DNA of 40,371 bases, taken from the IMG/VR virus record IMGVR_UViG_3300023104_000106, positions 1-40,371 of that record. One strand, given 5' to 3'. The stretch comes from a virus. The notes beneath the pieces were generated by a model. It saw only the letters and a program-made list of their open reading frames with translations, searched no databases and was not told the DNA's origin. Of the stretch, positions 5,704 through 31,865 are shown one piece after another. Every line of letters begins with the position of its first letter. The stretch's first letter is position 1. The translations under genes and the position numbers were made by a program.

Positions 5704-5727
5704 TTTTTGTTCACTTTTTTGTTCACT
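5704..5727. repeat. Two tandem 12-bp repeats, possible integrase arm sites
   Basis: TTTTTGTTCACT occurs twice in direct tandem (5704-5715 and 5716-5727), 80 bp inside the presumed attL. Short direct repeats flanking the core are usual for tyrosine-integrase arm-type binding sites. The binding role is inferred from position only. Confidence 0.45.
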
Positions 5728-16528: not shown

Positions 16529-17266
16529 ATGGCTGATGATAAACTAGATTACTTCAAGCTTATGCGTGATTTTTGGGATTTTGCTTGTAAAAACCCTGAA
16601 AGTATAAAGCCAAACCATTGTGCTGTGTATGCCTATGCTGTAGAACACTGTAATCGTTTAGGATGGAAAGAGAAGTTTGGTTTTCCAACCTCAATGGTTT
16701 TAGATTATGTTGGAATTAAAAGCTACTCAGTTTATAAAAAAACCTTTGATGATTTGGTTCAATTTGGTTTTTTCGAAGTAATAGAATATAGCAAAAATCA
16801 ATATTCAGCCAACATAATTGCTTTGAAAGAAAATAGCAAAGCACCTATCAAAGCACATGCGAAAGCAACCCCAAAAAACGAAGAATGCTTTGAAAGAAAA
16901 TTACAAAGCACATGCGAAAGCACCTATCAAAGCACCTTACAAAGCACGGAGAGTATAATAAAACAAGAAAACAATATAAAACCTTTAAAACCTCTTTCTA
17001 AAAATGAAATTTTCGGAAATGAAGTTTTACAAGATCAAATTTGGTTAGAAGCAATTTCGATGCAAAATCGAGTCGCTTTAGAAAATATTAAAGATTGGAT
17101 TTTAAAATTCAATCAAAAATTAATTGTTGAATGTGATTTGAAAATTAACAAACAAGATTATGCCGGACATTTTTCCCGGTGGCTTCCAGGTGAAATTTCA
17201 AAATCAAAAAAAGTAAACAAAGATGGAGACACAAAAGGCACGGGAGGATTTACTAAAAATCGATAA
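16529..17266 (+). CDS. Phage replication initiator (lambda O / DnaD-like)
   Basis: The 245-residue protein has an N-terminal winged-helix region (about 1-100: FPTSMVLDYVGIKSYSVYKK, FDDLVQFGFFEVI), a low-complexity middle made of repeated QST/KAH tetrapeptides (about 104-140), and a C-terminal helical domain. The middle is encoded by 12-bp iteron-like DNA repeats, exactly as lambda O carries its origin. The next gene is a DnaC-like loader, giving the same O-P gene order. It should bind the repeats and recruit the loader and host helicase. The last 44 bp overlap the loader gene. Confidence 0.75.
   Translation: MADDKLDYFKLMRDFWDFACKNPESIKPNHCAVYAYAVEHCNRLGWKEKFGFPTSMVLDYVGIKSYSVYKKTFDDLVQFGFFEVIEYSKNQYSANIIALKENSKAPIKAHAKATPKNEECFERKLQSTCESTYQSTLQSTESIIKQENNIKPLKPLSKNEIFGNEVLQDQIWLEAISMQNRVALENIKDWILKFNQKLIVECDLKINKQDYAGHFSRWLPGEISKSKKVNKDGDTKGTGGFTKNR
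16838..16949 (+). repeat. Iteron array, putative phage origin of replication
   Basis: Two blocks of 12-bp repeats with core AAAGCAC. Block one has units at 16838, 16850 and 16862 (the last degenerate). Block two has units at 16905, 16917, 16929 and a partial at 16941. Units AAAGCACATGCG and AAAGCACCTATC occur in both blocks. The blocks are 67 bp apart, not a multiple of three, so the same DNA is read as KAPIKAHAKA in one and QSTCESTYQST in the other. Conservation of DNA rather than peptide indicates protein-binding sites. AT-rich sequence (16950-17035) follows and could be the unwinding element. Confidence 0.75.
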
Positions 17267-18092
17267 TGTATTAATTCCCATTATTGGAATTCACAAATAC
17301 AACGAGTTAAAAAGCTTCAGTAGCGATAAATTAACCGAAGATCAAAAAAGTCAAATTGCTGCATACGAATCCAAAAACGTAGAAGCTACTGAGGAACAAA
17401 TAGCATTTAGAGCAAAATGGGTTCAAATCGTTCATCGCTCTAAATCAAAACCAAAGTTTTCAATTACCGCACGAAAGCTTTACAATCTTTTCAAGGCAAA
17501 TTTTCAAAAAATATGTGAAAGGCCGTTTATCAAAATTGAGGGTGTTACGATAAAAAACTTAGAACCCTTGATTTATTATTTTTCAAAAGATGAGCGCTTC
17601 TTCCAATGTGAAAATTTATCCAGAATTTCTGAACCAAGTTTTGATAAAGGACTTTTGATAATCGGAAATTATGGAAACGGGAAAACGTCAGCGATGAAAG
17701 TTTTTGAACATATTTTTAAAGGCATTTCCGGTGTCGGATTCAGAAGTTTTTCTGCAAACGAAGCGGTCACAATGTTTGAAAAATTATCAAGTGATGTCGA
17801 TCGAGATAATTTTGAAAAGATCATGTGGCGTGGAATTATAAACTTCGATGATTTAAAAACAGAACGTATTGCCAGCAATTATGGCAAGGTTAATATATTC
17901 AAAGAGATCCTCGAAGAGAGATATCGCCTTAAATCAAAAACATTCCTGATTTGTAACTTCAAAGAAGGGTATGAAGATGATCTGCAAGCTGCAATTGATG
18001 AAATCGGCGAAAAGTACGGTGGCCGGGTTTGGGATAGGATTTATGAAATGTTCAATATTATCGAATTCAAAGGTAAATCCTTTCGAAAATAA
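17223..18092 (+). CDS. DnaC/IstB-like helicase loader ATPase
   Basis: The 289-residue AAA+ protein has Walker A GNYGNGKTS near residue 148, Walker B NFDDLKTE near 217 and a sensor region TFLICNF, followed by GGRVWDRIYEMFNIIEFKG, typical of the DnaC/IstB/DnaI class. The N-terminal 110 residues would contact the replicative helicase or the initiator. It starts inside the initiator gene (44-bp overlap), so the two are made together. No phage replicative helicase of the DnaB type is in the window, so it probably loads host DnaB. Confidence 0.8.
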   Translation: METQKAREDLLKIDNVLIPIIGIHKYNELKSFSSDKLTEDQKSQIAAYESKNVEATEEQIAFRAKWVQIVHRSKSKPKFSITARKLYNLFKANFQKICERPFIKIEGVTIKNLEPLIYYFSKDERFFQCENLSRISEPSFDKGLLIIGNYGNGKTSAMKVFEHIFKGISGVGFRSFSANEAVTMFEKLSSDVDRDNFEKIMWRGIINFDDLKTERIASNYGKVNIFKEILEERYRLKSKTFLICNFKEGYEDDLQAAIDEIGEKYGGRVWDRIYEMFNIIEFKGKSFRK

Positions 18093-19061: not shown

Positions 19062-19337
19062 GTGAAAACAATCTTCTTAAATATGGGAAATATCATCATC
19101 GATAAAATAGAAACCGAAAAAATAGTTAGATCTGTCTGGGTCGCAAAAACTACAATCTACACTCCAACTAAAACCGATATAGAAATGAAAGGAGAAAGCG
19201 AAATCAACGCTTACGAAAAGCTAATTGATTTTTTAAAATGCGAGCAAAAACCTAAAGAGGTAAAAACGCTGCCGAACGGAAACAAAATCTATCACTTTAA
19301 AAATCCAACTACAAATGATGAATCAAAAACCTTATAA
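19062..19337 (+). CDS. Small basic hypothetical protein
   Basis: GTG at 19062 gives 91 residues; an in-frame ATG at 19083 is a plausible later start. The protein alternates beta-like segments (NIIIDKIETEKIVRSVWVAKT) and ends KTLPNGNKIYHFKNP. Its end overlaps the fusion protein start by 23 bp, so it is part of this transcript. No recognised family; a partner of the downstream helicase-methyltransferase is possible. Confidence 0.5.
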   Translation: MKTIFLNMGNIIIDKIETEKIVRSVWVAKTTIYTPTKTDIEMKGESEINAYEKLIDFLKCEQKPKEVKTLPNGNKIYHFKNPTTNDESKTL

Positions 19338-21936
19338 GGAATTTTTAGAGGATAAGATTGTTGTAGCTGGGACTTTTGGGACTGAAATTGATAAATCCTT
19401 GATCAATCCAATAGCAAAGCCACATCAGAAAGATATTATTCATTGGGCCGTTGGAGGCGGACGTCGTGCTATATTCGCATCGTTCGGATTAGGAAAAACA
19501 TTGATGCAGCTTGAGATTGCCAGGTTAATTATAAAAATCACTGGAAAACCATTCTTAATATGTATGCCTTTAGGTGTAGTTGGGGAATTTAGAGACGATA
19601 ATGATCTTTTGGGCGCAGAATATCCATTAAAATATATTACGGATACTGATGAGGTGGGCAAATCTGAGCTTGCTATATATGTGACCAACTATGAGCGTGT
19701 TCGAAAAGGAGATATTGATCCTGACTTTTTCGGAGGCGTTTCGTTTGACGAAGCTAGTATTTTGAGAAATCTAAAAACTGACACCACAAACTACGTTCTG
19801 AAGCATTTCAGAAAAATAAAATATCGCTTTGTTGCTACTGCGACACCAACACCAAATGACTTTATAGAAATACTGAATTATGCAGATTATTTAGGAGTTA
19901 TTGATCGTGGTCATGCTTTGACAAGATTCTTTCAACGAGATTCTACAAAGGCGGGCCATCTTACGCTTTACGAAAGTAAAAAAGAGGAGTTTTGGAAATG
20001 GGTTTCTTCTTGGGCGGTATTTATCAATAAACCCTCTGATCTTGGTTACGATGATACTGGCTATAATCTTCCGAAATTAAATTTTCATCCTATTGAAATA
20101 CCGGATAATTATGAAGGTGAAATATTAGATGAGAATGGAAATCTTGTCATGTTCAAAAAACCAAGAAAAGGTTTGTCGGAAACTTCGAAAGAAAAAAGAG
20201 ATACGGTTTTGTTGAGGACAAATAGAGCTCTTGAAATTGTAAAAGAAAATGGTCTTGAAGATAACTGGCTTCTTTGGCACCACGTTGACAGAGAACGAGA
20301 TTGTATTCAAAAACTATTCAAAGGATTTGATCTGCAAACTATTACAGGAAGTCAGAAAAATACTGAAAAGGAACAAAAACTGATTTCATTCAAGCATGGA
20401 GAATATAAGATCCTGTCCACTAAACCAAAAATAGCAGGTTCTGGATGCAACTTTCAAAAGCATTGTCATAAGGCTGTTTTCGTTGGAATTGATTATAAAT
20501 TCAATGATTTTATTCAAGCAATACACCGAATTATGAGATTCTTGCAAGAGTTTGAAGTCGATGTCTGGGCAATTTTTACAGAAGCGGAAAGAGAAGTTTT
20601 TAAAGAGCTGATGCGAAAGTGGAAGCAGCACATTGAAATGGAAACTGAAATGATCAACCTGGTCCGGGAGTATGGACTTAACCAAGATAAAATTACAGCT
20701 GATATGAAAAGACAAATTTTTGAAAATAAAAGAAGTGCTGTCATTGGAAATGCAAAAGTTTTCAATGACGATACTGTTATTGTTCATGAGCAAATGGCAG
20801 ATGATTCTACGGATATGATTTTAACGTCAATTCCTTTTGGTGATCATTATGAATACTCAGATAATTATAATGATTTCGGTCATAATAATGGGAACAAAGA
20901 GTTCTTCAAACAGATGGATTATTTGACACCCAATTTGCTACGAACACTAAAGCCCGGCAAAATTGCTGCAATTCACGTTAAAGACAGGATCCGTTATTCA
21001 TATCAAAATGGAACTTCGTTTACTTCCATTGAAAGTTTTTCAAACGAAACGATAAGACATTTCACAAAAGCTTCAATTGGTGACAAAATTGAAATGTTAG
21101 AAGCATTAAAAAGTGAAGGAGTTGTTTTAACTGAAAAAATTGAATCCGAGCTTGCAGAATTAAAAGCTGATTATGAAAATAGATTTTATCATGTTGGAAC
21201 AATTACCGTAACAACGGATGTTGTTCGCGAAAATAATCAAACATATCGTTTAGGATGGTCTGAGCAATGCAAAGACGCTACTAAAATGGGCGTAGGATTG
21301 CCAGAATATGTTTTGCTTTTCAGAAAGCGACCAAGCGAAAGTAATAACGCCTATGCAGACGAACCCTGTGTTAAGACCAAAGATGAATATCCAGTTGATA
21401 ATTGGCAATTAGATGCTCATGCTTATTGGAAGTCATCAGGAAATCGGTTCATGAGTTATGAAGAATTAGCGGCTACAGATATGAAAGCGGTTTTTAACCG
21501 ATGGAAAGAGCATGATTCAAAAAATATCTATGATTTTCAAGAGCATTTAAAGGTTTGTCAGGATTTAGAAAAAGCCGGGAAATTAAGTAAAAAGTTTATG
21601 ACAATTCCACCTACATCACCAACAGATATGGTTTGGACTGATGTAAATCGAATGAACACCTTAAACGCTAATCAGGCAAACAGAAAAAAGGAAAAGCACA
21701 TTTGTCCACTTCAATTGGATATCATCGAAAGATTAATTAATCGATTTACAATGAAAGGTGATGTTGTTGATGATCCTTTCGGCGGTTTATTCTCCACAGC
21801 TTACAAAGCACTTGAAATGGAACGCAAAGCGATATCTGCAGAGCTTAATCCAAACTATTATGATGATGGTCTTTTTTACCTGAAATCTATCGAGTACAAA
21901 ATAAATGTTCCAACCTTATTTGATTTAGCAATATGA
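19315..21936 (+). CDS. SNF2-like helicase fused to DNA methyltransferase
   Basis: The 873-residue protein joins two enzymes. Residues 1-450 form an SNF2/SF2 motor: ASFGLGKTL (about 56-64), DEAS in VSFDEASILRN, TATPTPNDF, and a C-terminal lobe with QAIHRIMRF. Residues about 485-873 form an N4/N6-type DNA methyltransferase: motif IV-like LTSIPFGDHYEY near 500 and the SAM-binding DPFGGLFST near 820 with ISAELNPNYY. Phages use such fusions to modify their own DNA against restriction. The usual DPPY-type catalytic motif is replaced by SIPF, which I believe is normal for this phage group but could alter the target base. The next gene overlaps by 4 bp. Confidence 0.82.
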   Translation: MMNQKPYKEFLEDKIVVAGTFGTEIDKSLINPIAKPHQKDIIHWAVGGGRRAIFASFGLGKTLMQLEIARLIIKITGKPFLICMPLGVVGEFRDDNDLLGAEYPLKYITDTDEVGKSELAIYVTNYERVRKGDIDPDFFGGVSFDEASILRNLKTDTTNYVLKHFRKIKYRFVATATPTPNDFIEILNYADYLGVIDRGHALTRFFQRDSTKAGHLTLYESKKEEFWKWVSSWAVFINKPSDLGYDDTGYNLPKLNFHPIEIPDNYEGEILDENGNLVMFKKPRKGLSETSKEKRDTVLLRTNRALEIVKENGLEDNWLLWHHVDRERDCIQKLFKGFDLQTITGSQKNTEKEQKLISFKHGEYKILSTKPKIAGSGCNFQKHCHKAVFVGIDYKFNDFIQAIHRIMRFLQEFEVDVWAIFTEAEREVFKELMRKWKQHIEMETEMINLVREYGLNQDKITADMKRQIFENKRSAVIGNAKVFNDDTVIVHEQMADDSTDMILTSIPFGDHYEYSDNYNDFGHNNGNKEFFKQMDYLTPNLLRTLKPGKIAAIHVKDRIRYSYQNGTSFTSIESFSNETIRHFTKASIGDKIEMLEALKSEGVVLTEKIESELAELKADYENRFYHVGTITVTTDVVRENNQTYRLGWSEQCKDATKMGVGLPEYVLLFRKRPSESNNAYADEPCVKTKDEYPVDNWQLDAHAYWKSSGNRFMSYEELAATDMKAVFNRWKEHDSKNIYDFQEHLKVCQDLEKAGKLSKKFMTIPPTSPTDMVWTDVNRMNTLNANQANRKKEKHICPLQLDIIERLINRFTMKGDVVDDPFGGLFSTAYKALEMERKAISAELNPNYYDDGLFYLKSIEYKINVPTLFDLAI

Positions 21937-31838: not shown

Positions 31839-31865
31839 GGAATTTAGGGAATTTAGGGAATTATT
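31839..31865 (+). repeat. Three tandem 9-bp purine-rich repeats
   Basis: GGAATTTAG occurs at 31839 and 31848, then as GGAATTATT at 31857. Related GGAATT words follow at about 31868 and 31891 (AGGAATTGGG, GGGAATTTGGGG). The strongly strand-biased purine tract (31830-31910) holds no gene. Binding site array or slippage repeat are both possible. Confidence 0.45.

Follow-up and report, generated by a model that had tools for sequence, protein, structure and literature searches.

The gene described here raises the question of what a repeat is kept for when it lies inside a coding sequence: the peptide that it spells, or the DNA itself. The window, meaning the whole stretch of DNA analysed, comprises the 40,371 bases of an IMG/VR virus record, and in the middle of this gene the same short word recurs in two blocks. 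A previous sequence-only reading had proposed that selection on these repeats acts on the DNA and that they form part of a lambda-O-like origin in a Bacteroidota phage. The features of the window that bear on this question are as follows.

16529..17266, plus strand: predicted replication initiator gene, 245 amino acids, containing the array (open reading frame with about 130 homologues)
16529..16837, plus strand: predicted N-terminal winged-helix DNA-binding domain, residues 1-103 (AlphaFold2 model, Foldseek/VIA-align)
16819..16837, plus strand: leader TGCTTTGAAAGAAAATAGC before block 1, copied ahead of block 2
16838..16867, plus strand: iteron block 1, AAAGCA at 16838, 16850 and 16862, frame 0, peptide KAPIKAHAKA
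16886..16904, plus strand: second leader copy TGCTTTGAAAGAAAATTAC, shifted 67 bp, frame +1, 17/19 identical to TGCTTTGAAAGAAAATAGC
16905..16947, plus strand: iteron block 2, AAAGCA at 16905, 16917, 16929 and 16941, frame 1, QST/EST peptide
16952..16957, plus strand: AGTATA junction, 11 bp from the start of the last word, a family-wide spacing
16963..16996, plus strand: degraded second array, AC at 16963, 16971, 16981 and 16990, presumed unwinding region; first ACMA 11 bp after the AGTATA start
17021..17185, plus strand: C-terminal DUF7833 domain (PF25200, Pfam E 4.8e-8)
17223..18092, plus strand: DnaC-like helicase loader gene, overlapping the initiator gene (phrog_50 E 1.5e-11, phrog_3277 E 5.7e-11)

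The two blocks of 12-bp repeats with an AAAGCAC core were confirmed inside the initiator gene, and exact AAAGCA words could be located in both, the first words of the blocks being 67 bp apart. There are seven exact words between 16838 and 16946, with spacings of 12, 12, 43, 12, 12 and 12 bp; this gives seven words within 120 bp, compared with at most three when the window was resampled 200 times under a first-order Markov model. The two peptides described earlier were also recovered from the 245-residue open reading frame, KAPIKAHAKA from frame 0 and the QST-type peptide QSTCESTYQSTLQST from frame 1. Two short perfect tandem repeats were seen elsewhere in the window, TTTTTGTTCACT present twice at 5704-5727 and GGAATTTAG present 2.7 times at 31839-31862, both possibly intergenic.

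Scans of viral contigs and bacterial genomes based on tblastn yielded about 130 loci, and 390 relatives were found in the viral collection. The homologues were partly found through the same protein and are therefore not a random sample; a second scan used only patterns of the N-domain. The relatives include the Polaribacter phages Danklef_1 to 5 and loci in genomes of Bacteroidota such as Flavobacterium, Chryseobacterium, Lutibacter and Pedobacter, which agrees with the proposed assignment to a Bacteroidota phage. The plasmid collection contained no relatives, and none were found when viral contigs were scanned with a distant homologue (L219). When viral contigs were scanned with the DNA pattern alone (spacings 12, 12 and 11), all 84 of the 84 arrays among the matches listed lay within open reading frames carrying the N-domain.

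Across 129 homologues, successive AAAGCA words are 12 bp apart in 429 pairs and 11 bp apart in 154, and a spacing of 23 bp corresponds to one skipped word. At each 11-bp step the words shift frame, following the order 0, 2, 1, so the peptide changes from KA to KH/KQ and then to QST/EST. The two-frame reading proposed earlier holds for the window (frames 0 and 1) and is refined by the relatives, in which the words occupy three frames. The commonest frame pattern is 0002211 (15 loci), and most arrays contain five to eight words. The total number of words across frames varies less than in permutations (variance 2.2 vs 3.1, P 0.002, a value that ignores kinship), and a few homologues carry degenerate arrays (L048, L049, L051 and L243). 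The clade of the window uses frames 0 and 1 only; the middle words in frame 2 are missing, and the leader copy stands in their place. Because its close relatives L058 and L259 keep an uninterrupted three-frame array, comparison of the sequences indicates that the two blocks of the window are what is left of an older array in three frames.

The region beyond the words also has a fixed geometry. The distance from the last word to the start of AGTATA is exactly 11 bp in 78/89 loci, and from there to the first AC[AC][AT] it is again exactly 11 bp in 81/88. In the family, the AT content climbs from 60% to 80% at this junction. The AT-rich tract reported after the repeats of the window is present, and its start could be refined to around AGTATA at 16952 (77% AT vs 59-67% over the repeats). 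In the AT-rich stretch of the family, AC[AC]A recurs every 7 or 8 bp in all three frames: 272 pairs at these distances were observed, compared with 60 ± 8 (maximum 82) under synonymous recoding, and the longest such chain per locus has a mode of 5, compared with 1 in control sequence farther downstream. The clearest second arrays, found in L120, L086, L041, L021, L006 and L056, comprise seven AC[AC] steps, each of 7 or 8 bp, across all frames. The window keeps both 11-bp steps (16941, 16952, 16963), its longest 7/8-bp chain is only 2, and its second array is regarded as degraded because the later AC motifs are spaced 8, 10 and 9 bp. We tentatively propose, while holding it somewhat doubtful, that the AT-rich side does more than melt easily: AC[AC]A every 7/8 nt, held at a constant 11 + 11 bp beyond the last iteron, would be a second frame-independent code, which might serve as a single-strand recognition ladder placing the initiator or the helicase loader on one strand. 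In that case the complete origin would amount to a rigid ruler with two periods, running through coding sequence. Such a ladder would be comparable to the DnaA-trio in role and different from it in unit.

In array-bearing homologues, the array sits between the N-domain and the C-terminal part. The N-terminal 100 residues are conserved across homologues, and the part beyond the array is not; DUF7833 is present in 6/25 sampled homologues, and other sequences replace it in many. The C-domain was modelled by AlphaFold2 as four helices, and its Foldseek search gave nothing better than E 2 and no significant PDB match. The DnaC-like gene claimed to lie next to the initiator is there (phrog_50), and the next gene encodes a DnaB-like helicase or primase-helicase in 7/10 relatives tested; in the other three (L018, L060 and L091), it encodes a protein of unknown function. 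Farther downstream in the window, the 873-aa gene at 19315-21936 has matches to the DNA helicase family phrog_16 as well as to the DNA methyltransferase family phrog_67 and apparently encodes a fused helicase-methyltransferase.

The AlphaFold2 model of the N-domain is a winged helix (pLDDT 90), and its best structure matches in Foldseek/VIA-align included the RepA_N initiators 4pql (Z 8.9), 4pt7 (8.4) and 5kbj (8.4) and PLE RepA, 4ro3 (8.0). Winged helices of Fur and LexA match it as well as RepA initiators do, so the fold alone cannot decide the family. The Pfam scan of 97 N-domains assigned no family, and a PDB sequence search with the N-domain profile found nothing.

The arrays, their fixed geometry, the selection at the DNA level, the exclusive location in this gene and the replication-gene neighbourhood were all computed directly. 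We consider it very probable, from the sequences, the modelled fold and the analogy with known initiators, that the gene encodes a phage replication initiator and that the DNA coding for its linker is an in-gene iteron origin bound by the protein's own winged-helix domain, working like that of lambda O or pSK41 RepA. The N-terminal domain would bind the AAAGCAC iterons as an ordered array with one protomer per 11-12 bp. The AT-rich stretch beyond AGTATA, where AC[AC]A recurs at 7-8 bp in most relatives, would then be unwound, and the replication machinery would be loaded by the C-terminal part acting with the adjacent loader or helicase (the DnaC-like loader in the window). These steps of binding, opening and loading are modelled on lambda O (PMC7466680, PMC5043065) and pSK41 RepA (PMC5703833). 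Along both the window and Danklef_1 the GC skew climbs steadily, with no turning point at the array, and is uninformative about the origin; DnaA boxes occur at chance level with none near the array, and scans for sigma-70 promoters and terminators gave nothing convincing there.

The array could instead be an autoregulatory operator, the protein being a transcriptional regulator that binds its own gene while replication starts elsewhere. The N-domain fold is common to many transcription regulators, and the homologue in the Polaribacter phage Danklef is annotated 'transcriptional regulator'. However, the array lies about 300 nt inside the gene, an AT-rich second array of fixed placement comes after it, and the genes next to it encode helicases, primase-helicases and loaders. 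We consider this alternative improbable; a dual role of the array as both operator and origin is possible.

To decide between DNA and peptide, codons were counted in 100 non-redundant homologues from which near copies had been removed; the codon and word counts otherwise ignore kinship. Alanine in the KA words is encoded by GCA in 268/272 cases, compared with 42% elsewhere in these genes, and serine in the QS/ES words by AGC in 176/182, compared with 14%. Lysine is encoded by AAG in 180/249 cases in the KH/KQ words, compared with 21% elsewhere in these genes, and by AAA in 265/272 cases in the KA words. Word pairs at 11/12 bp numbered 462, compared with 21 ± 5 after random synonymous recoding of the same peptides, and the profile of the AAAGCA core is identical in all three frames. 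We searched the relatives for the QST peptide kept without the repeats and found the opposite: the peptides vary among KA, KH and QST while the DNA word persists, and the codon choice follows the word. Because the AAAGCA word is kept while the frames spell unrelated peptides, the sequences indicate that the DNA words themselves are under selection, whichever frame they are read in, as had been claimed from the window. The linker peptide would be a by-product in which KA, KH or QST repeats are tolerated, and we hold this to be very probable jointly with the rest of the origin reading.

These counts also bear on the view that the repeats are kept for the protein, as a basic repetitive linker that aids binding to DNA or a partner, with the DNA pattern arising as a by-product of repeat expansion. 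Tandem repeats could indeed expand by slippage, and the KA peptides are rich in lysine. However, one DNA word gives three unrelated peptides, the 11-bp steps break the frame, and codon choice is extreme in each frame; the codon counts refute this view as the main explanation, and it is highly improbable.

The two blocks of the window might also reflect neutral tandem duplication, block 2 being a recent 67-bp copy of block 1 with its leader and the frame difference an accident. The leader copy (17/19 identical, shifted 67 bp) fits this account, and a similar copy ahead of a second block was seen in L007 and more weakly in L060. The account is true of the leader copy, but frames 0 and 1 at the two ends reflect a phase inherited from the three-frame array of homologues, L058 and L259 among them, and the words are conserved over far greater divergence, so that as an explanation of the array it has very little probability. 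In L059, L060, L007, L062 and L076, as in the window, the locus's own pre-array leader has apparently been copied mid-array before a second block, which suggests that such duplications have arisen repeatedly and independently; among the clear cases, the identity threshold was passed by L007 and L060 only, with a control rate of 4/90. In L062, moreover, at least five copies of AAAGCACAGGGC spaced exactly 12 bp apart form an extended array, which looks like a recent expansion. An action of the array in RNA, such as a series of sites bound by a translational regulator of the initiator mRNA, is scarcely credible. In its favour, the strand folds as single-stranded DNA into a structure more stable than those of shuffled sequences (z -3.2), because TGCTTTG of the leader pairs with CAAAGCA. 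However, this predicted pairing uses the leader, which is variable across the family, and not the 11/12-bp word geometry, and the AT-rich second array and the helicase partner are left unexplained.

The iteron origin proposed here was compared with known systems. In lambda, the origin lies in the O gene, with iterons followed by an AT-rich region (PMC7466680). Likewise, in lambda O/ori-lambda, P22 gp18 and HK97 O, the origin is inside the initiator gene between an N-terminal DNA-binding domain and a C-terminal partner domain, and the lambda O type also has iterons, then an AT-rich region, and a helicase or loader gene next. We checked in the lambda sequence that the iterons start at O offsets 348, 368, 392 and 415, which are frames 0, 2, 2 and 1; iterons that switch frames are therefore not new. 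Lambda has four 18-bp near-palindromic iterons 20-24 bp apart, in contrast to direct words of 6-7 bp spaced 11/12 bp here, and its AT-rich region showed no 7/8-bp AC[AC]A array in the same scan. The earlier description of a lambda-O-like origin thus stands as a proposed way of working, by analogy; as to descent, comparison of the N-domain with lambda O gave an hhalign probability of 5-15% (pairwise E 0.002-0.007), and no Phage_rep_O match was found in the Pfam scan of 97 N-domains. In two lambda-O-like proteins, from Caldibacillus phage CBP1 (L269) and a Morganella phage (L270), repeated linker peptides (TVSKNADS.., SNLETKKVSKLET..) were observed, and these look like in-gene iterons as well.

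The RepA_N initiators (pSK41 and pTZ2162 RepA) and PLE RepA, which is 4RO3 (PMC7145576), have an N-domain fold that resembles the model about as closely as the Fur and LexA winged helices do. In pSK41, the origin occupies a central position in the rep gene, whose linker peptide can be dispensed with (PMC5703833); RepA_N initiators likewise carry the origin between two domains. Their iterons are semi-palindromic around a poly-A tract (PMC5703833), in contrast to the direct words here. A DnaD-like C-terminal domain is expected of them; here that part is DUF7833 or other sequences, DUF7833 giving the four-helix model with no significant PDB match. The 97 N-domains gave no match to the RepA_N domain PF06970 at E up to 5. 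In iteron plasmids (RK2, P1 and F) and oriC, direct-repeat iterons adjoin an AT-rich region in which short repeats also occur (PMC5043065). The arrangement described here shares both elements. The origins of this kind lie beside the rep gene and are not known to lie inside it, and their AT-rich repeats are 13-mers, not 7/8-bp words. The present arrangement differs from lambda and pSK41 in its short words at 11/12 bp, in a junction fixed at 11 + 11 bp and in having a second array at 7/8 bp.

Remote homologues were collected by profile searches of about 1,190 Bacteroidota genomes. In the same linker they carry altered words, GGCAC-type in L237 and L241, AGCATTG in L242 and TGCAAT at 11 bp in L221, L232 and L233, and L220 has a semi-palindromic repeat at 22/23 bp. 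A binding domain co-evolving with its own sites would give such altered words. In raw counts, C occupies word position -2 in 66% of words for N(W/Y)R recognition helices vs 6% for SY helices; the link between helix type and this base is only suggestive because the tree holds one well-supported independent contrast. Bacteroidota chromosomes also encode winged-helix proteins of about 100-130 aa (L222-L224, L227-L231 and L247-L258) that are distantly N-domain-like and carry neither a linker array nor a C-domain; they are possibly regulators related to the initiator.

Among the open-licence papers searched, we found no report on this family, nor any origin mapped by experiment or initiator recognised as such in these Bacteroidota phages. 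The present finding predicts both for several hundred viral contigs and provides a DNA signature that detects them. With a single DNA word spelled out in three frames, selection on the DNA can be told apart from selection on the protein unusually clearly in this family, and the 7/8-bp second array gives a clear, testable prediction of how the AT-rich unwinding region may be read.
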